64,000 nucleotides of DNA from Herbaspirillum sp. LeCh32-8 (lineage in GTDB: Bacteria > Pseudomonadota > Gammaproteobacteria > Burkholderiales > Burkholderiaceae_D), in contig NZ_JAGIPZ010000006.1 in the NCBI RefSeq assembly GCF_017814915.1, positions 124,001-188,000 on the forward strand, given 5' to 3'. The notes beneath the pieces are model-generated. The model made no database searches and had not been told where the DNA came from. It worked only from the letters and a program-made list of their open reading frames with translations. The position numbers and the translations under genes are program-made. Position 1 is the stretch's first letter. Each line of letters starts with the position of its first letter. This document shows, piece after piece, positions 3,452 to 11,828 of this stretch.

Positions 3452-3497
3452 TGCTTCAATGTCACCTGATTTGGCTTGAGCGCAAAGATTCACGTAC

Positions 3498-3521
3498 AGG
3501 CCTCCTCGATTGAGGAGGCCT
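3498..3521. terminator. Bidirectional hairpin between gyrB and island operon
   Basis: AGGCCTCCTC and GAGGAGGCCT form a perfect 10-bp stem with a GATT loop. It sits between the convergent ends of gyrB (plus) and the response-regulator gene (minus), so it can serve both. Confidence 0.7.
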
Positions 3522-3524
3522 AAT

Positions 3525-4649
3525 TTATACTTTCACAATCTGATTTAGCAGAGAATCAAACTCTAAATCAGGAGTGCCAACTCGACCGTAATATCGAACG
3601 AATCGACTTTGTATCGACTCCGCAAACGGGGAGTCTAACGTGGCAACTCGCTTATAGTGGACGTCCCCGTGAATTTCAGTGACTGAGATTTGCCTCAGGT
3701 TCTGAAAATCTATTACCAAATCCGGCAAGAAGCTAGTCCCCGGCAAGAATTTATACCTATCTGGTTGTATTCCTTTTCCTTGTCGTCTGTCCGCAAGCAA
3801 CGAGCGTAGATTTGCTCTCAATGCCTTTTCCTTTTCGGCCAATTTGTTTCCTACAAACTCTTGATGTTCGGTTGCATCAGACAACGGAAAGCACTCCGCC
3901 AGAAGCGCCTTCTCAGCCTTATCTTGCGCAAAATCACACGCTGGATTCAAGACAATAAAAAATTTCTCATTGCCATTGGACTGATGTTGGACCAAATCGC
4001 AAAATGTCAAAGTGTTGCCAATCGGAGGCCAAATATAAAGCTCGATCGGATGAGCAATTTCATGGTGGGAATCGTGAGCTGGATTGAAAAATTCTCTGAT
4101 TGTGTCTCCGGCCAAAGCATTCGAAAGTCGTCGGGCTAGCAAAAAAGCAAATTCATGTTGTACCTGGTTAAGATTTACCTGCGTCGACTCATTCTCAATG
4201 TGATCCCACAAATATTGTCTTTGATGTTCTTGGATATGGCGCAAAAGCGATGGCAACTTTGTTTCGTATATTTCTTTAACTGCTTGTCGCAAAGCGTGAG
4301 CATCTCCTTTTGAGACAACTTTCACAAATGGACTTTCGAGATGCGCAATCTTGTGTGCGTATCCGGTGTAGAACACCACCGGTGTGAAATGGCTTAGTCG
4401 CAATTGCTGAAGGATACGTTCACCACCGTAGGATGTGTCCGAATTTTCGAGGTCCGTGACATCATCTTTAAGATCCAGTACCAAAACGTCAAAACGAGAT
4501 ATCGCAATTTGCTTTAGAGCCACATCGAAACTAGCAATTTGGGTGCATTCGATCTCTCCGTCAATTCCGCTTTTACGGTTCGAAATCAGTTCCGACGTAG
4601 TCGATGCTTGTTCTGCATCGTCATCTACCACCAACGCGTTCCATTTCAT
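3525..4649 (-). CDS. Response regulator with uncharacterised C-terminal output domain
   Basis: Residues 1 to about 125 form a receiver domain with all key residues: acidic cluster D9-D11 (VVDDD), phospho-acceptor D59 (VLVLDL), T95 (VFYTGY) and K114 (VSKGDA). The remaining ~240 residues match no DNA-binding output domain that I recognise. There is no helix-turn-helix signature, but there is a segment FIVLNPACDFAQDK (C238, D239) resembling short CD motifs seen in other uncharacterised accessory proteins. The gene starts only 5 bases after the stop of the histidine-kinase gene, with GAAGA upstream, so the two form an operon and very likely a cognate pair. Codon use is AT-rich, as in the rest of the island. 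I infer a phosphorylation-controlled effector or adaptor rather than a transcription factor; the function is unknown. Confidence 0.8.
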   Translation of the reverse strand: MKWNALVVDDDAEQASTTSELISNRKSGIDGEIECTQIASFDVALKQIAISRFDVLVLDLKDDVTDLENSDTSYGGERILQQLRLSHFTPVVFYTGYAHKIAHLESPFVKVVSKGDAHALRQAVKEIYETKLPSLLRHIQEHQRQYLWDHIENESTQVNLNQVQHEFAFLLARRLSNALAGDTIREFFNPAHDSHHEIAHPIELYIWPPIGNTLTFCDLVQHQSNGNEKFFIVLNPACDFAQDKAEKALLAECFPLSDATEHQEFVGNKLAEKEKALRANLRSLLADRRQGKGIQPDRYKFLPGTSFLPDLVIDFQNLRQISVTEIHGDVHYKRVATLDSPFAESIQSRFVRYYGRVGTPDLEFDSLLNQIVKV

Positions 4650-4654
4650 TCTTC

Positions 4655-6820
4655 TTAGACCCTCTTCCTTAAAGTAATTTTAAAAGTGGCACCTGTCTCG
4701 CGGCCATCATCTATCAATTCAAGTGCTCCCTCGTAGTAGTCACGAATAATTTCCCCCGAGACTGACAATCCAAGACCTGTTCCATCGGAGCGTGTGGAAA
4801 AATACGGTTCAAAAATATCCTCTCTCATGTTTTCAGAAACGCCTGGCCCTGTATCTGAAAAAATGATCTCTACAGCACCTTCAATGGTCCTCTCTACGAA
4901 TGTACTTATTGCTCGGGACTTTGCTGGAACTGTTGATAACCAGTAGATGCTGTTCTGAATCAGGTTGACGAATACTTCTTGTAGTTCTGCTGGGTCAACG
5001 GTCACCCATGTTTCCGTGGAGGGTGCATGAACTTGGATATGGTGTTTATTTATGTCGGCAGAAAAAATCTCGAAAGATGTCCTGACGACACTTTCTAGTG
5101 TGATTTTGGTAGGACGGCCGCGTTTGCGACCGCCAAAGGGCTCAACTCTTTTAAATACGCCGTGGAGGACTTCTGCCTGCGCCGAAATCTTGACGGTTCG
5201 CGTATGTATTTGCTTTAGGACTGGAGACGTTGAGAATCCAGAAATTTCCTCAAGGTCTTCTTTTGCCAGTAACGCTTCTGCGGCGATTTTTGAAAGCGGC
5301 TGGCGACCATTGTGTAGAACCGTATCAACAAGCTGACCGAGTGTGACGAGGCCTTGGTATCTAGAAACGGTGGTTTTAATGACATCGAGTTGCTTTGCCA
5401 TTCCTTGTTCCACTTCACCGAGAAGAGCTTGCGCTATCTTGTCCTCGGGGCGGCTGCTGTTGAGATATTCGTTTAGTTTTGAAAAGTCTGGGGGCGTGAA
5501 GATACCTTGCTGCTTGTCAGGATCATTTGGATTTCCTGCCTTGCGATCTCCTCTCCGAGATTTTCGGCGTGTAACCTCAATCCGCGAAATCAGATTAATC
5601 ATGATGTCGCTCAGATCCTGTAATGCTTGATTCTCCCTCAAGCCTTCTCTATTGGATTGATCTTTAAGATTGGGATTCCCATCAGACGTAAGGGCGATAT
5701 ATCCGAGAATTTGGTTATTAGAAAGCCGCAGGGAGGGATTTTGCACTCGCCGCAAATCGAGCCGTAGCCAGTCGTTGCGAGGCTCTCCATATGGTAAAAC
5801 CCGGAAACCATCTCGATAGATGTTAATGCCGGCATGCGAATCTAAATCTCTTCTTACATCGCGAAGTGTGCTTTGCGCGGCTTGAATAATTCCTCCAAGA
5901 TCGTCTCGATCCCAAATCCTCAGCTCTACGTCGATTGGTCCACAATCGGGTATTCGCATGCCCTCAACGAATCTTTCCCCGTCGCTATCAATCATTTGCC
6001 ACCCACTTGAACTGAGCTGGAATTTTCCCTTATGTTTGCTCACGTCTCCCGTGGAGGTCACGAAGCATTCGATATCGTATTCTCCGTTGCCGTTAACCTT
6101 TCCTCTAAGCCGATAGTGAGGATGGTTTACTACATCGGGAGCCGAAATTGTCGAAGTAAAACGTTCAAAACCGTCTGGAGCTTCAACTCGTATGTGAAAA
6201 TTATCGATGGATGCAAAAGGGGAAATTAGCCTAGACAATGCTTGCTGGAGCTGCGTAAAGCTGCTGTCATTCCAGTCGCTCTTCAATTTATTCAAGCGCA
6301 GAATGGTCCCATTATCTTGAGACAAGAAAAGCGAGTTCAGCGAACTGTTTGTTCTTGCCTGGCTTTCTGACAGAACTTCCACTTCATCTAAGAACTTTTC
6401 ATCATCATCAAATTGTGTCCAATCAACATATACGTAGGCCTGATCTGCCTGATTGCGTTGTCGACTAAAAACCTCTGATTCCGCAGAGAGTCTCGCTGCA
6501 GCAAATCTTCCAATTCCCTTTTCGCCCAGTACCCTTCGACCTAAATTCAAACTTCTCTTTCTTACGCTTTTTGTCGGGGTGGCAAGTTCTAGCCAAGCAG
6601 TTTGCACTGTCTCAATGCTCATGCCGTTTCCATCGTCAATGACCTCAATCGACCCCATCCCTTTTTCTACAGGAGCATGAAATCGGATAACGACGTTCTG
6701 GGCATCAGCATCGTAGGAGTTTTTCACGAGCTCGATTATCGCCACACTATCGCTGCTAATTAGTTCTTCACCAATAGTCCTCATAAGTCGGGCCCTGGGT
6801 CTAAACGTACTAGTCGTCAT
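4655..6820 (-). CDS. Histidine kinase with N-terminal MORC/Hsp90-like GHKL ATPase plus C-terminal kinase core
   Basis: The 721-residue protein has two separate GHKL ATP-binding folds. The N-terminal one has an N-box ELVKNSYDADA (E30, N34, D37), a G1 box IDDGNGM (62-67) and GEKGIGR (99-105), and is followed by an S5-like region with IYRDGFRVLPYG near 334-344. This is the Hsp90/MutL/MORC arrangement. The C-terminal half is a histidine kinase: a dimerisation helix with candidate phospho-acceptor H503 (VLHNGRQPL), N-box VFVNLIQNS, G1 DTGPG, F-box IFEPYFSTR and G2 GTGLGLS. No transmembrane segment is evident, so it should be cytoplasmic. It lies 43 bases downstream of the EcoRII-type nuclease gene and 5 bases upstream of the response regulator. 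MutL/MORC-type ATPases are known in restriction-modification neighbourhoods, which supports a defence role; the input signal is unknown. Confidence 0.85.
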   Translation of the reverse strand: MTTSTFRPRARLMRTIGEELISSDSVAIIELVKNSYDADAQNVVIRFHAPVEKGMGSIEVIDDGNGMSIETVQTAWLELATPTKSVRKRSLNLGRRVLGEKGIGRFAAARLSAESEVFSRQRNQADQAYVYVDWTQFDDDEKFLDEVEVLSESQARTNSSLNSLFLSQDNGTILRLNKLKSDWNDSSFTQLQQALSRLISPFASIDNFHIRVEAPDGFERFTSTISAPDVVNHPHYRLRGKVNGNGEYDIECFVTSTGDVSKHKGKFQLSSSGWQMIDSDGERFVEGMRIPDCGPIDVELRIWDRDDLGGIIQAAQSTLRDVRRDLDSHAGINIYRDGFRVLPYGEPRNDWLRLDLRRVQNPSLRLSNNQILGYIALTSDGNPNLKDQSNREGLRENQALQDLSDIMINLISRIEVTRRKSRRGDRKAGNPNDPDKQQGIFTPPDFSKLNEYLNSSRPEDKIAQALLGEVEQGMAKQLDVIKTTVSRYQGLVTLGQLVDTVLHNGRQPLSKIAAEALLAKEDLEEISGFSTSPVLKQIHTRTVKISAQAEVLHGVFKRVEPFGGRKRGRPTKITLESVVRTSFEIFSADINKHHIQVHAPSTETWVTVDPAELQEVFVNLIQNSIYWLSTVPAKSRAISTFVERTIEGAVEIIFSDTGPGVSENMREDIFEPYFSTRSDGTGLGLSVSGEIIRDYYEGALELIDDGRETGATFKITLRKRV

Positions 6821-6863
6821 AGTCTCTCAATAGGAATTCAGGTTAAATGTCATATTCAGCAAA

Positions 6864-8108
6864 TCAGCTCTGCAACAATCTGGCCCGCAATATGAATTGC
6901 TGGACGCCGATCAGATGCTTTCGTTGATTGATGGTGTAAGTAACATGCAGTGGAGTTGGAATCACCAAAAACAAATTATGCGAATTCATTTCATTGGTCT
7001 GATGTTCGCTGATTGCCGGCTCCAGTGTGACTAAATACTTGGTCTTGACTCTTATCGCCTCACTTAGAACTTGTCGCCACCGATCTTTACATGTTGTTTT
7101 AGCGCCCAACATAGTCAACTTTTCAGCCGGGAAATTGGAATTACGATAGGCGGAAAACGATGGGAAAATAAAATCGGGTTTTGAGCGGTTCTCGGTGAAA
7201 TTCTCTCGTCCTTTGCCTTGTTCAAACTTGAGCCCATGCGCGCGGAAGAGCGCATCTAAATGATTTTCAAAGGCATGGCCGGCTCGAGATTTTCTGCGAT
7301 TCTGAACGCTTAGAGAGAATTTGAGAAACTCAGTTACATTGTCATCCTGCCCAAAACCTTCGTTGAGTTTTATTTTAAGGAGATGCCGTTCATATATTCG
7401 AAACAGCTTCTCCTCTTGGTTCATCCAGGCCATAAGCGCTTCATCGGGATCGCCAATGGGATTCACATCTGTGCGGATTGAGTCGCGTGCAAACTCGGAA
7501 AATAATGTCGTACTAGGAAATCCCTCTGCCCCAAATTTCTCCAGCAAAGACCCCAACCACGCATCATCATCTCGAGTGAAACTAGCGATATCTACACCAA
7601 GCTCTTCCAGCATGAGCCTGAGAGGCAAGAGGAACTCTATCGCTCCAATTACTCCAGGGGAAAAACGCTCTTGGATATTATCCAAACCGAAGATCGCACG
7701 AAGCTGACTTTCTACTGACCCCCCAGCGGGTGTAAATACCATTAGTAATGAATCATCGCGCAATTTAGCAACGAGTAGAAAATCACCCGGGGCTATTTGC
7801 TCTGTTACTGGGCTATCTGGATAGTAAAGGCGATATTCCGGCAGACGAGATTCACTATTGCGCCTGCTGTCATACCAAGACACCTCACTGTCGCAAATGA
7901 GAGGAGCTTCGTCGTAGTCGCGAATGTAAACTTGTCGCGCGCGGAAATAGTGAGGTTTGTCCCGAGGTTCGCCTAGCCATTGCTTAAAACCAGCTGCAGG
8001 AAGCCCGCCGATTTCGTGCTGATTTGAGCGCCTTTTGTCTGCATCAACTGCGCTCAAGTATTTGGCCGCCACTCCTTCGAAGTAGTCACCAATACGATCA
8101 TTGAACAT
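6864..8108 (-). CDS. EcoRII-family type II restriction endonuclease
   Basis: At 414 residues it is close to EcoRII (about 404). The C-terminal half contains the EcoRII catalytic domain: NRRKSRAGHAFENHL (270-284), KPDFIFP with D312, and LGAKTTCKDRWRQVLSEA with K337 and E350, forming a PD-(D/E)XK site. The N-terminal ~200 residues fit the position of the EcoRII effector-DNA-binding domain but are more diverged. EcoRII cuts CCWGG and needs more than one site for efficient cleavage; the same specificity here is inferred from the adjacent Dcm-type methyltransferase. It is the first gene of a minus-strand operon with the histidine kinase and response regulator, and is divergent from dcm. The AT-rich composition suggests horizontal acquisition. 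Confidence 0.93.
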   Translation of the reverse strand: MFNDRIGDYFEGVAAKYLSAVDADKRRSNQHEIGGLPAAGFKQWLGEPRDKPHYFRARQVYIRDYDEAPLICDSEVSWYDSRRNSESRLPEYRLYYPDSPVTEQIAPGDFLLVAKLRDDSLLMVFTPAGGSVESQLRAIFGLDNIQERFSPGVIGAIEFLLPLRLMLEELGVDIASFTRDDDAWLGSLLEKFGAEGFPSTTLFSEFARDSIRTDVNPIGDPDEALMAWMNQEEKLFRIYERHLLKIKLNEGFGQDDNVTEFLKFSLSVQNRRKSRAGHAFENHLDALFRAHGLKFEQGKGRENFTENRSKPDFIFPSFSAYRNSNFPAEKLTMLGAKTTCKDRWRQVLSEAIRVKTKYLVTLEPAISEHQTNEMNSHNLFLVIPTPLHVTYTINQRKHLIGVQQFILRARLLQS

Positions 8109-8246
8109 ACCGATTTAGCCCAATAAATATTTTTAGTTAACGGCTACATTTCGTCGTGATCTGCGAGCGCCCCATCGCTCTTCGCGAGATCAATCTATAT
8201 TCATTTTAAACCGTATCTAGAATTTATTTGATCGGAATCCTCTGGG

Positions 8247-8277
8247 TCAAATGAGTGATATAGTGTCACTCATTTGA
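8247..8277 (+). promoter_or_regulatory. 12-bp perfect inverted repeat overlapping the dcm promoter
   Basis: TCAAATGAGTGA (8247-8258) and TCACTCATTTGA (8266-8277) are perfect inverted copies separated by TATAGTG. An extended -10 element, TGA followed by TATAGT (8256-8264), lies inside the palindrome. A bound protein would therefore block dcm transcription. M.EcoRII is known to repress its own promoter; the island's XRE regulator is the other candidate. Which protein binds is inference. Confidence 0.65.
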
Positions 8278-8297
8278 CACATGATTTAGAGGTAACA

Positions 8298-9650
8298 GTG
8301 GATCCAAAATCTGACGACTTGTCTCTCCTGAAGAGAGTGCTCGAAATCTACGATCAGAAATATGTTGCCAACTATTTGAACGCGGTCTCGCCGGACGACT
8401 GGTGCAGAGAGACCGTTAATCGTTGGATCAACGGTAAGGCTTCGCCCCGGCTTAGCTATAACGAATTCCAGGCACTGGAGGCATTGCTTCCGAAGCCCAG
8501 AACAACCGAGCACCATTTTGATTTCATTGATTTGTTTGCTGGTATTGGAGGCATCCGCCGAGGATTTGAAGACATTGGCGGGCGGTGTGTGCTGACCAGT
8601 GAATGGAATAAATATTCGGTCCAAACATATAAAGCAAACCATCATTCTGATCCGGAGTCACATGTCTTCAATGAGGACATACGTGAACTGACACTCTCGA
8701 ACAACGAGCGCGTCAGTGAGGATGAAGCATATAAATACATAGACAAAGCCGTTCCCGATCACGACGTGCTTCTGGCCGGCTTTCCTTGTCAGCCATTTTC
8801 TATCGCCGGCGTTTCCAAAAAGAACTCGCTTGGCATGAAACACGGCTTCGAGTGCAAAACGCAGGGCACTTTGTTTTTTGACGTGGCACGGATCATCGCG
8901 GCAAAGAGGCCGGTGGCTTTTGTTTTGGAAAATGTCAAGAACCTGAAGAGCCACGACAAGGGGCGCACATTCAAAGTCATCCGAGAGACCTTGGAGGAAC
9001 TGGGTTACTGGATCGCCGATTCAGAATTTGAAGGATCGAATGATCCAAAGATATTGGATGGTAAACACTTTGTGCCCCAGCATCGTGAGCGAATTGTTCT
9101 GGTCGGCTTCCGTAAGGATCTGAACGTTCACAAAGACTTTTCGCTGAAAAACGTATCTAAGTTCTTCCCAGAAAAAAAGCCCGTGTTAGGCGACATCCTT
9201 GAGCCGAATGTCGATGATAAATACATACTGACGCCTAAGTTGTGGGAGTACTTGTTCAACTACTCAGCGAAGCACAAAGAGAAAGGTAACGGTTTCGGAT
9301 TTGGACTTGTGAAGGAAACCGATATAGCCCGAACTCTTTCAGCCAGATACCATAAAGACGGGTCGGAAATTCTTGTGGATCGGGGCTTTAATCCCAACAA
9401 GCCTCTGTCAGAGAAGAACAATCAGAAGAATCGTCCACGTCGTTTAACACCAAGAGAGTGCGCTCGATTAATGGGATATGACGGGCACGATGAAAAGAAC
9501 TTCCGTATTCCAGTATCGGATACACAGGCATACCGGCAATTTGGCAATTCAGTAGTCGTTCCTGTGTTCGCCGCCGTGGCAAAATTGATGGCGCCCCTCA
9601 TTATTGAGGCCAAAAGGCGAAACCTCCAGGCTAATGAAAAGGCTGCCTGA
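8298..9650 (+). CDS. dcm: Dcm/M.EcoRII-type DNA cytosine-C5 methyltransferase
   Basis: It transfers a methyl group from S-adenosylmethionine to cytosine C5, expected at CCWGG, protecting host DNA from the adjacent EcoRII-type nuclease. All C5-methyltransferase motifs are present: I ([16 protein letters not shown]), IV with the catalytic Cys ([10 protein letters not shown]), VI (FVLENVKNL), VIII ([12 protein letters not shown]), and IX-X ([33 protein letters not shown]). Similarity to E. coli Dcm is high throughout, including the roughly 80-residue N-terminal extension. I chose the GTG at 8298 because AGAGGT lies about 4 bases upstream; an in-frame TTG at 8274 is an alternative but falls within the operator palindrome. 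The stop is 3 bases before vsr, so they are co-transcribed. Confidence 0.96.
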
Positions 9651-9653
9651 ACA

Positions 9654-10136
9654 TTGAGTGACGTTCACTCGCCTGAAATCCGCTCTCGTAATATGAGTGC
9701 GATTCGAGGACGCGATACAAAGCCAGAACTTGCGATACGGAAGGCCCTTCACCAAAAGGGTTTCCGTTATCGTCTCCATGTAAAGGACCTTCCCGGCGCG
9801 CCGGACATAGTCCTGCCGAAATATCGCGTTGCGATTTTTGTGCACGGTTGTTTTTGGCATGGTCACGCATGTCCACTTTTCAAAATTCCAAAAACAAGGA
9901 CAGATTTCTGGCTGACGAAAATTCAGCAGAACGTGAACAGGGACGCACGCGACTTTGAAAAATTATTAGTAAGCGGATGGAGAGTCAGCATCGTATGGGA
10001 ATGCAGAATCAAAGGCCCCTACAAGGAAGATCCGGAAGCACTGATTGCCAATTTAGTGAAATGGATAAGCACTGGCACCAAGTCTTCTATCGAGTTTCCA
10101 GAGGTCGGTGTCAACCCTGTTTTTTGCCCAAGCTGA
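9654..10136 (+). CDS. vsr: Very short patch repair endonuclease
   Basis: Vsr nicks DNA 5' of the T in T:G mismatches that arise when Dcm-methylated cytosine deaminates, starting very-short-patch repair. The sequence has the expected landmarks: an N-terminus RSRNMSAIRGRDTKPE, LPGAPDIVLPKYRVAIFVHGC split across the nuclease core (D of PD is catalytic), the metal-binding segment HGCFWHGHACPLF, RTDFWLTKI, and WRVSIVWECRIKG near the end. The length of 160 residues is normal. The start is a TTG three bases after the dcm stop; the next ATG, 40 bases on, would remove conserved residues. The dcm-vsr order matches E. coli and many EcoRII-type systems. Confidence 0.95.
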   Translation: MSDVHSPEIRSRNMSAIRGRDTKPELAIRKALHQKGFRYRLHVKDLPGAPDIVLPKYRVAIFVHGCFWHGHACPLFKIPKTRTDFWLTKIQQNVNRDARDFEKLLVSGWRVSIVWECRIKGPYKEDPEALIANLVKWISTGTKSSIEFPEVGVNPVFCPS

Positions 10137-10213
10137 GAGCAACACCGTGAGTAACATGAATTGGTTTAACGAATCTGCAGTTCCATTTCCTTTTGTTCGG
10201 CTTTGCATCAAAT

Positions 10214-11293
10214 CTAAAGCTCAGCCCTAAGGCTCTTCAACCAGTCGGCCGACGCGATCGTCCTACTTCCGCCATCCATAAGTGCAGACATGTTTGACGC
10301 GATCTCACGAGCCGGATCCGAGAACTGCCCCAACTTACTGAATTTACCGAGATCGATAGACTTAAATTTAACGCTGCTTTCACCATTGACCGAAGTGTGA
10401 CGACCTGCAGTGGATGAAGACGTTATTCCAATTTCATCGAGCGTATTTCGATCAAGGACGGTTGCGATTACCGCAGCACGATCACGTATCTCAAGGTCTG
10501 TGAGCAAATACATGGAGGTGGCATTCTTCGTCCAGTAGGGCTTCACCAGAATTGTATGGAGACATTTGATACCAGCGTCTGCGAGCTTACTCAAAACTTG
10601 TAGCTCTCCATCATTAATTCCGAATGAAAGCCCTCTCCATGAGGACATGGGGAATTTGTGTTTGATCTCAAAAATCCAAACTTCTTTGTCAATGACAAAA
10701 ACTCTGTCCAGATTCCACACGGACTGAAAATATGGCTGGATCGCACAGTTGATGAATAAGCGTGGGAGCACCACCCGTTCTCCCACGCGGTCACGGTACT
10801 GAGTGAACAGAAACCCCCAGATAGCTTGCTGCTGCCGCAGCGAATCTCTTACTGATGTATTGACCTTAAATGGGGAGTACGGTTTTCCGGATAACTCCGT
10901 CATCAGCTCGCTAAGCAATTGGGGTTCCCCAACACGAACTGCTCCATTCATCCTTACCGCGAAGAATTCACCATCCTCATAGTTGACAAGAAACGTGGTG
11001 AAGATAGTGCTTAGTCGGGCAAGGTATCTTGCAAGACCCGCTGATTTATTTCGAACCCAGACGAACGCGATCCAACGTTCCTGACTTCTCTGAGTATCAA
11101 CCACGACACTTTCGACATCCAGCGCAGTGATTTTTTCACCAGACACAGACGGCACATTTGCGACGATCTGATCAAACAAGCTTTCTACGACAAGACCTTC
11201 AAGCAATGTGTGCTTGTCTGCACTGAGAATCTCCGCAGCCGTCGCATGATTCGCGAGGTCTAAATCTCGAAGCTCTCCCCATGGTGTTTTCAT
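10214..11293 (-). CDS. Putative PD-(D/E)XK nuclease of the restriction island
   Basis: I do not recognise the family of this 359-residue protein. Its centre carries a PD-(D/E)XK-like core, NLDRVFVIDKEVWIFEIKHKF, split as D196 followed 13 residues later by E209-x-K211 on a predicted strand, which suggests a Mg-dependent endonuclease. The ATG at 11293 is preceded by GGGGA at 5 bases; an upstream in-frame ATG at 11455 would overlap the XRE gene and add a poorly supported 54 residues. It lies 97 bases downstream of the XRE gene on the same strand, the usual controller-then-nuclease order. It is convergent with vsr. No dedicated second methyltransferase accompanies it. Composition is AT-rich, as in the island. 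Confidence 0.6.
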   Translation of the reverse strand: MKTPWGELRDLDLANHATAAEILSADKHTLLEGLVVESLFDQIVANVPSVSGEKITALDVESVVVDTQRSQERWIAFVWVRNKSAGLARYLARLSTIFTTFLVNYEDGEFFAVRMNGAVRVGEPQLLSELMTELSGKPYSPFKVNTSVRDSLRQQQAIWGFLFTQYRDRVGERVVLPRLFINCAIQPYFQSVWNLDRVFVIDKEVWIFEIKHKFPMSSWRGLSFGINDGELQVLSKLADAGIKCLHTILVKPYWTKNATSMYLLTDLEIRDRAAVIATVLDRNTLDEIGITSSSTAGRHTSVNGESSVKFKSIDLGKFSKLGQFSDPAREIASNMSALMDGGSRTIASADWLKSLRAEL

Positions 11294-11390
11294 ATTGTCC
11301 CCGAGCAATAAAGCTCGGATAGCATACACGGGAAGATGCACTTTGAATAAATATCTGGCGATATTTCGATTGACTAAATTTTGGTATTTT

Positions 11391-11654
11391 CTATTGGTCA
11401 GTGTCTGCAGTATCAATAGAGAAAAGATTGGCATCAAGTAGGCGTGGCAATTCAAGTTCCAAAGCGTTGGCTAGTGCCTCCATATGGTCCACCGAGATAT
11501 TTCTCGCTCCTCCCTCTACTTGGCTCAGATAGGTCCGACTCATACCTGCCTGGAAAGCAAGTTCTTCCTGAGAAATCTCCTTCAATCTGCGAGCTCTTCG
11601 AACATTAAGTCCAAAGATTTCGCGCGCACTTGGCAAGGTTTTAGTCTTTTTCAT
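11391..11654 (-). CDS. Small XRE-family HTH regulator (possible R-M controller protein)
   Basis: The 87-residue protein is almost entirely one Cro/C1-type helix-turn-helix domain: ARRLKEISQEELAFQAGMS then RTYLSQVEGGARNISVDHMEAL. Size and domain content match restriction-modification controller (C) proteins, which delay nuclease expression until methylation is complete. It is the first gene upstream of the putative nuclease on the same strand. No clear ribosome-binding site precedes the ATG, and C genes are often leaderless. Its target could be its own promoter or the palindrome in front of dcm; neither is proven. A general phage-type repressor is the alternative. Confidence 0.75.
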   Translation of the reverse strand: MKKTKTLPSAREIFGLNVRRARRLKEISQEELAFQAGMSRTYLSQVEGGARNISVDHMEALANALELELPRLLDANLFSIDTADTDQ

Positions 11655-11828
11655 CGCTCAGAGCATCAGACGCCTAAGAGCGACGGTCTATTATCTAAAT
11701 AAAACTGTGCGTTAACTTTAAGTCACAATTTATCAAATTATCCCGATTCTGTAACTCCGCCCCACATGTTATCTATATAGACATTGCCCACCTCCCGCCC
11801 CAACCCTACCACTCACCATCGGCGCCCC

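Follow-up and report, generated by a model that had tools for sequence, protein, structure and literature searches.

Pairs of two-component-like genes that accompany R-M genes were described in 2021 (Bellieny-Rabelo, HEF_HK/Response_reg_2; PMC8011034), and the neighbours reported for them include C5-methylases, Vsr, and EcoRII-C. Relatives in that set are up-regulated in Pectobacterium on potato tubers—a response that does not point to phages—and the discussion of the same paper speculates that the pairs control R-M systems (PMC8011034). GHKL ATPases are likewise known from R-M loci. Those named paraMORC are described from R-M operons that also encode nucleases and helicases (Iyer 2008, PMC2292703). 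The occurrence of MutL/MORC-like ATPases near some R-M genes was also part of the background of the initial annotation of the present locus. VcSduA (Shedu, paraMORC3), in which a GHKL part is joined to a nuclease, is reported to be anti-phage (PMC12137116). That annotation had proposed a composite defence in which a phosphorelay either controls restriction or provides a second line of response when restriction fails; no published functional test of either role was found. Here we show that the kinase–receiver pair in question accompanies C5-methylases rather than EcoRII, an association that is new here, and we consider what such a pair might do.

The window, the whole stretch of DNA that was analysed, comprises 64,000 nt of Herbaspirillum sp. 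LeCh32-8 (NZ_JAGIPZ010000006.1, positions 124,001–188,000, forward strand). Within it, the genes for an EcoRII-type restriction endonuclease (414 aa; 6864..8108, − strand), a GHKL-ATPase histidine kinase (721 aa; 4655..6820, − strand), and a receiver protein (374 aa; 3525..4649, − strand) share one strand and stand 43 and 5 bases apart, exactly as first annotated. Divergent from this row are the genes for a Dcm-type C5-methyltransferase (8274..9650, + strand; NCBIfam PRK10458, 761 bits against a cut-off of 710) and a Vsr mismatch endonuclease (9654..10136, + strand), followed by the unnamed p413 (360 aa from the likely ATG; 10214..11296, − strand) and an XRE-type HTH regulator resembling R-M control proteins (11391..11654, − strand; PADLOC Control_protein, 64.9 bits). 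A perfect 10-bp, terminator-like hairpin (3498..3521) stands between gyrB and the receiver gene. At the dcm start is an inverted repeat with 16-nt arms (94%) and a 7-nt spacer (8243..8281), possibly an autoregulation site for the methylase or the HTH protein. The repeat overlaps a promoter-like consensus match (8250–8221, − strand) directed toward the nuclease; since promoter-like matches are rarer than in shuffles, this match alone is no evidence.

These genes form an island of 44–48% GC inside DNA of 63–66% GC, flanked by gyrB and a SIR2-type gene, and because dcm, vsr, p413, and the HTH gene are included in the low-GC DNA, the feature is larger than the three genes. This DNA-restriction island is horizontally acquired, and it holds the one C5-methylase match in the 5.03-Mb genome. 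Comparison of window positions 3452–11784 with six loci of the genus (L210–L214 and L216) indicated that the stretch after gyrB to the HTH gene adjoining SIR2 (or DUF445) is a hotspot for cargo, which consists of kinase–receiver–Dcm–Vsr in one genome (G557), Dcm–Vsr with other genes in another (G634), and other genes in two more (G536, where they include a GHKL gene, and G568); in G579 and G610, the stretch is nearly empty.

The nuclease matches EcoRII-C (PF09019; residues 236–406) at 221.9 bits, and its residues 217–407 are close to solved EcoRII (3hqg, E 4e-39; 1na6, E 2e-38). The catalytic residues D312 and K337, annotated as intact, are indeed kept in all eight aligned EcoRII-type proteins, the window's included. 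The description of the enzyme as EcoRII-type holds for this catalytic half but not for the N-terminal half, which has no recognised domain: residues 1–214 gave no Pfam match to EcoRII-N, a domain that the EcoRII of another locus (L036) carries at 123 bits.

On the far side of the methylase, p413 is possibly a PD-(D/E)xK nuclease, judged by eye. Its homologues were found on six plasmids, and R-M genes lie beside it in all four of the plasmids whose surroundings were examined. In Acidiphilium and Acidithiobacillus, p413 adjoins an annotated type II REase, Vsr, and Dcm (53% identical), with the Acidiphilium REase matching EcoRII, and the orders REase–p413–dcm and vsr–dcm–MvaI/BcnI REase–p413 occur in Photobacterium and Spirosoma, respectively. 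The protein has the look of a companion of such R-M systems that has so far escaped notice, and it is possibly, but not certainly, part of the restriction/kinase system of the window.

The kinase contains two GHKL ATPase modules by Pfam, namely HATPase_c_3 at residues 25–142 and HATPase_c at residues 609–719, and from residue ~480 onward it matches solved kinase cores (ZraS, E 7e-16). In an alignment of the window kinase with 79 relatives, the H-box residue H503 and the N-terminal GHKL residues D62, G64, G66, K101, G102, and G104 are present in 80 of 80 rows, and N619, N623, D656, and G658 in 79. The receiver alone gives a weak Pfam receiver match (16.9 bits against a cut-off of 30.2), and the profile of its family matches solved receivers (ArlR, 1e-10). 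Among the window receiver and 73 relatives, D59 of the REC domain and C238, which lies in a PxCD motif of the C-terminal output domain, are the sole invariant columns (74 of 74 rows), and D10 is present in 73. The integrity of H503 and D59, as initially annotated, is thereby borne out, and both halves of the predicted relay look active from their conserved residues. Thus, the H-box His, N and G boxes, and receiver Asp of a two-component system are all conserved; the regulator has no known output domain. A sequence search of the PDB up to E 10 gave no match for this domain, nor was there a consistent Pfam match across 54 members of the family, and neither source gave the domain a name.

With respect to the pairs described in 2021, neither PF19191 nor PF19192 was found in the window kinase and receiver by a Pfam scan at E up to 1, or in three plasmid homologue pairs at E up to 0.5, and membership of the window pair in PF19191/PF19192 was rejected on the blank scan. 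The window-type output domain was nevertheless aligned by hhalign with three PF19192 receivers over 136 columns (Prob 94; E 1.7e-7, an E-value for one comparison). Furthermore, a third set, with partners of ~450 aa, is related over most of its length (E 2e-11, Prob 97, 341 columns) when a 17-member set is used, which supersedes an earlier weak comparison of these partners (Prob 7.6). This C-terminal homology, in the absence of a PF19191/PF19192 match, makes the window pair a sister branch of the known kind. PF19192 receivers themselves were found in 3 of 274 class genomes; a Dcm-type gene and a GHKL kinase accompany the receiver in all three, and Vsr in one.

Of 398 phylum genomes, 4 have the receiver, and of 392 family genomes, 14 have the kinase at E up to 1e-30, the window genome being included in both counts; a search of phage records with the receiver gave no match. 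Gene neighbourhoods were compared for the best 80 of 544 kinase relatives from genome contigs, a sample biased to similar kinases because only the best were kept. The receiver gene directly neighbours the kinase in 77 of these 80 (73 by a stricter spacing rule), and Dcm lies within 6 kb in 68, Vsr within the same distance in 40, and EcoRII in 4. Of the 12 clusters with no Dcm match within 6 kb, five are no more than 300 bases from the end of a contig. The linkage of the pair to C5-methylase genes spans many phyla. EcoRII-C, for its part, was found in 22 of 398 phylum genomes, window genome included, and the pair stands beside EcoRII in two of these 22 (the window and G068), several of the stretches being short or cut by a contig end. 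The composite defence proposed initially is therefore retained as a methylation-linked system, given the 68 loci with Dcm and the fused kinase described below, whereas control of EcoRII by the phosphorelay as a general role is weakened by the co-occurrence counts.

That such pairs usually occur without any restriction gene, which was to speak against the initial reading, is borne out in part: 33 of the 80 clusters consist of Dcm, kinase, and receiver and, apart from Vsr or HTH, contain no further ORF of at least 150 aa (a count that leaves out L047, L062, L083, L085, and L098), but methylases are the usual company. At least 1 kb of flank is available on each side in 23 of the 33. In these clusters the pair occupies the place expected for a nuclease gene; a nuclease may sit outside the clusters as drawn or among the 63 extra ORFs, of which 8 were scanned with Pfam or PADLOC. 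Some of the genes labelled Dcm in the cluster listing are glycosylases or pieces, and one labelled as the kinase is another GHKL gene. Nucleases recognised in other clusters are of the AspBHI type in L038 and L039, and type II matches were obtained in L043 (methyl-directed) and L116.

Several further features of these neighbourhoods were observed. The AspBHI-type enzymes (L038, 6829–8049; L039, 7327–8481) are methyl-directed according to PADLOC, yet are located in the same cluster as a C5-methylase, a seeming contradiction. HhH-GPD-type glycosylases lie beside the pair in L047 (by Pfam) and in L051, L081, L083, L084, L096, and L098, where they resemble the C-terminal part of the L045 and L052 methylases; in these two methylases the glycosylase is fused to Dcm. 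The enzymes may be G:T mismatch glycosylases that take the place of Vsr. Among plasmid records matching the kinase (L007 and related records), 41 of 65 are from Campylobacter, with kinase and receiver adjoining dcm in the one that was examined, and in some records the kinase match covers two annotated genes.

Comparison of identities shows that partners have been swapped among the loci. The window's nearest kinases, those of L038 and L039 (49% identical), have beside them another kind of nuclease and a Dcm with 27–29% identity to that of the window, and across 17 loci with a Dcm match and kinases 42–49% identical to the window's, the Dcm is 23–29% identical (best segment). At the EcoRII loci L089, L104, L105, and L111, the Dcm is 47–52% identical to the window's and the kinases 29–35%. 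On a quick kinase tree of 84 rows, eight of them with EcoRII, from which seven near-identical rows had been left out beforehand, the EcoRII partnership needs six changes, gains and losses being indistinguishable. Shuffling of the EcoRII label on this tree gave a value as low in 8 of 500 cases; the label is slightly clustered, so not every recruitment need be independent. On a quick tree of 36 chosen rows, with L023 left out, five changes are needed, and a single EcoRII clade is rejected (p-AU 5e-81). EcoRII and the pair thus appear to have come together repeatedly, which is new here. In addition, a viral contig (L155) has the same five-gene order as the window.

In one relative, the kinase of L095 from a Flavobacteriales genome, the EcoRII-N DNA-binding domain is fused to the N-terminus (52.5 bits against a cut-off of 25), an arrangement that is also new here. 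The operon has the order HTH–Dcm–kinase–receiver, and the stop of the Dcm frame lies one base ahead of the kinase frame, so the EcoRII-N part belongs to the kinase gene. The Dcm shares 45% identity with that of the window across 364 columns, and its PRK10458 score of 336 bits is far under the cut-off of 710. No EcoRII-C above cut-off was found in this genome, the best match having 14 bits and two stops. The L155 kinase shows a sub-cut-off EcoRII-N (22.0 bits; E 1.6e-4 alone), and the fusion is accordingly counted in 1 of the best 80 of 544 genome loci and, below cut-off, in 1 of 38 viral loci, N-terminal extensions having been sought only in ORFs of at least 780 aa. With the fused protein as query, a search of viral_contigs, which reaches close relatives only, gave no match, and in the plasmid search the N-terminal part was absent, the matches starting at residue 179 or later among the 40 listed of 44 records. 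EcoRII-N was found in 3 of 296 genomes of the same phylum, and only G1045 has a long fused frame. No report of the fusion was found in open-licence literature by searches not aimed at it by name. At another locus, L232, a stand-alone EcoRII-N-like ORF of 141 aa (6557–6982, − strand) is located beside a GHKL ATPase and an ORF that, by eye, reads as an SNF2-type helicase; this row adjoins Dcm–EcoRII–Vsr and recalls the R-M operons described in PMC2292703.

Because of the EcoRII-N–kinase fusion and the known GHKL clamps, we tentatively propose, at somewhat less than an even chance, that the pair is a DNA-sensing phosphorelay that acts as a companion of C5-methylases and, in the island, as a second arm beside EcoRII. 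The N-terminal GHKL module would engage DNA as in MutL/MORC-type clamps, the putative clamp taking in kinase residues 143–440, and would respond to unmethylated (non-self) target DNA, either directly or via a partner DNA-binding domain. Such sensing would trigger phosphorylation of H503 and then transfer to D59, and phosphorylation of D59 would release the C-terminal PxCD output domain; we infer this response side of the relay. The EcoRII of the island would be the first arm, cleaving unmodified CCWGG, as predicted from the type of its Dcm, and the phosphorelay would be a second, nuclease-independent arm with the same Dcm mark as its self signal. If this is true, a histidine kinase reads the methylation state of DNA, and the sensing of self and non-self DNA becomes a phosphorelay. 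It would also explain why C5-methylases can have the pair, without a recognisable nuclease, beside them. The DNA-sensing reading gives a direct test for the genes published in 2021, and with the EcoRII-N–kinase fusion a DNA target can be predicted and put to the test on one protein.

It is possible, if rather doubtful, that the pair takes the role of restriction arm in an R-M-like system that works without a nuclease. The kinase, reading DNA, would then detect target sites without the Dcm mark, and the phosphorylated receiver, through a new effector domain that contains the Cys, would stop the phage or the cell, so that EcoRII islands would carry a cutting arm and a signalling arm under one methyl mark.

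A role of the phosphorelay in adjusting how strongly Dcm and EcoRII are transcribed or how active they are, so that self-damage is avoided, as suggested by the authors of the 2021 study, is unlikely. The shared strand and close spacing with the nuclease are consistent with such a regulator, as is the control of R-M systems on which the discussion of that study speculates (PMC8011034), but no known DNA-binding family was recognised in the output domain (PDB up to E 10, Pfam), pairs persist where no nuclease is recognised, and more usual regulators, the HTH gene and the inverted repeat at the dcm start, are already present.

More improbable still is that the GHKL module is an ATP-driven clamp aiding the nuclease on DNA, with the kinase chemistry secondary. 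A pure clamp would need neither an invariant H-box His and receiver Asp nor the receiver gene next in line in 77 of the best 80 of 544 relatives, even though the paraMORC proteins of R-M operons that include nucleases and helicases (PMC2292703), the joining of GHKL to a nuclease in VcSduA (PMC12137116), and the EcoRII-N–kinase fusion all speak for it. A similarly low probability is assigned to EcoRII and the pair being chance neighbours in a defence hotspot, brought there separately and without interaction. The EcoRII combination is found on several kinase-tree branches, L155 repeats the five-gene order, and the three window genes share one strand with 43- and 5-base gaps, all of which argue against coincidence; that same-genus genomes differ in cargo between gyrB and the HTH edge, and that EcoRII and the pair are each mostly seen without the other, would fit it. 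It is very unlikely that the MutL-like module cooperates with Vsr or with a glycosylase in mending deaminated 5-methylcytosine, for although Vsr lies within 6 kb in 40 of the best 80 of 544 loci and an HhH-GPD-type glycosylase is beside the pair in several others, half of these 80 are without Vsr within that distance, and restriction enzymes and a restriction-type DNA-binding domain also accompany the pair.

Taken as the DNA-sensing phosphorelay preferred here, the pair can be set beside the known systems. The window resembles an EcoRII R-M system with Dcm and Vsr in that an EcoRII-C nuclease, Dcm, and Vsr share one locus; it differs in having the pair, which is absent beside 20 of the 22 EcoRII-C loci examined (some stretches being short), and in having a nuclease without a recognisable EcoRII-N. 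Detocs is a two-component-like phage defence with other domains than the window pair. Both are two-component-like, with no shared family shown here, and the PADLOC scan listed no Detocs model, whether or not its library contains one. In HEF_HK/Response_reg_2, as in the window, HATPase_c_3, H-box, and HATPase_c are combined in one protein with the receiver gene adjacent, and C5-methylase, Vsr, and EcoRII-C neighbours are found in both (PMC8011034). The three PF19192 receivers have 555–617 aa and their kinases 991–1003 aa, as against 374 and 721 aa in the window. As in the case of paraMORC, the window has a GHKL ATPase in an R-M neighbourhood, near C5-methylases, Vsr, and EcoRII-like nucleases, and VP1/RAV-type DNA-binding proteins are noted for the paraMORC operons (PMC2292703). 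The terms "receiver" and "two-component" are absent from the main text of that paper, whereas the window ATPase continues into a complete kinase core. VcSduA likewise has an N-terminal GHKL ATPase, as does the window kinase, but its output is a fused nuclease and not a phosphorelay (PMC12137116).
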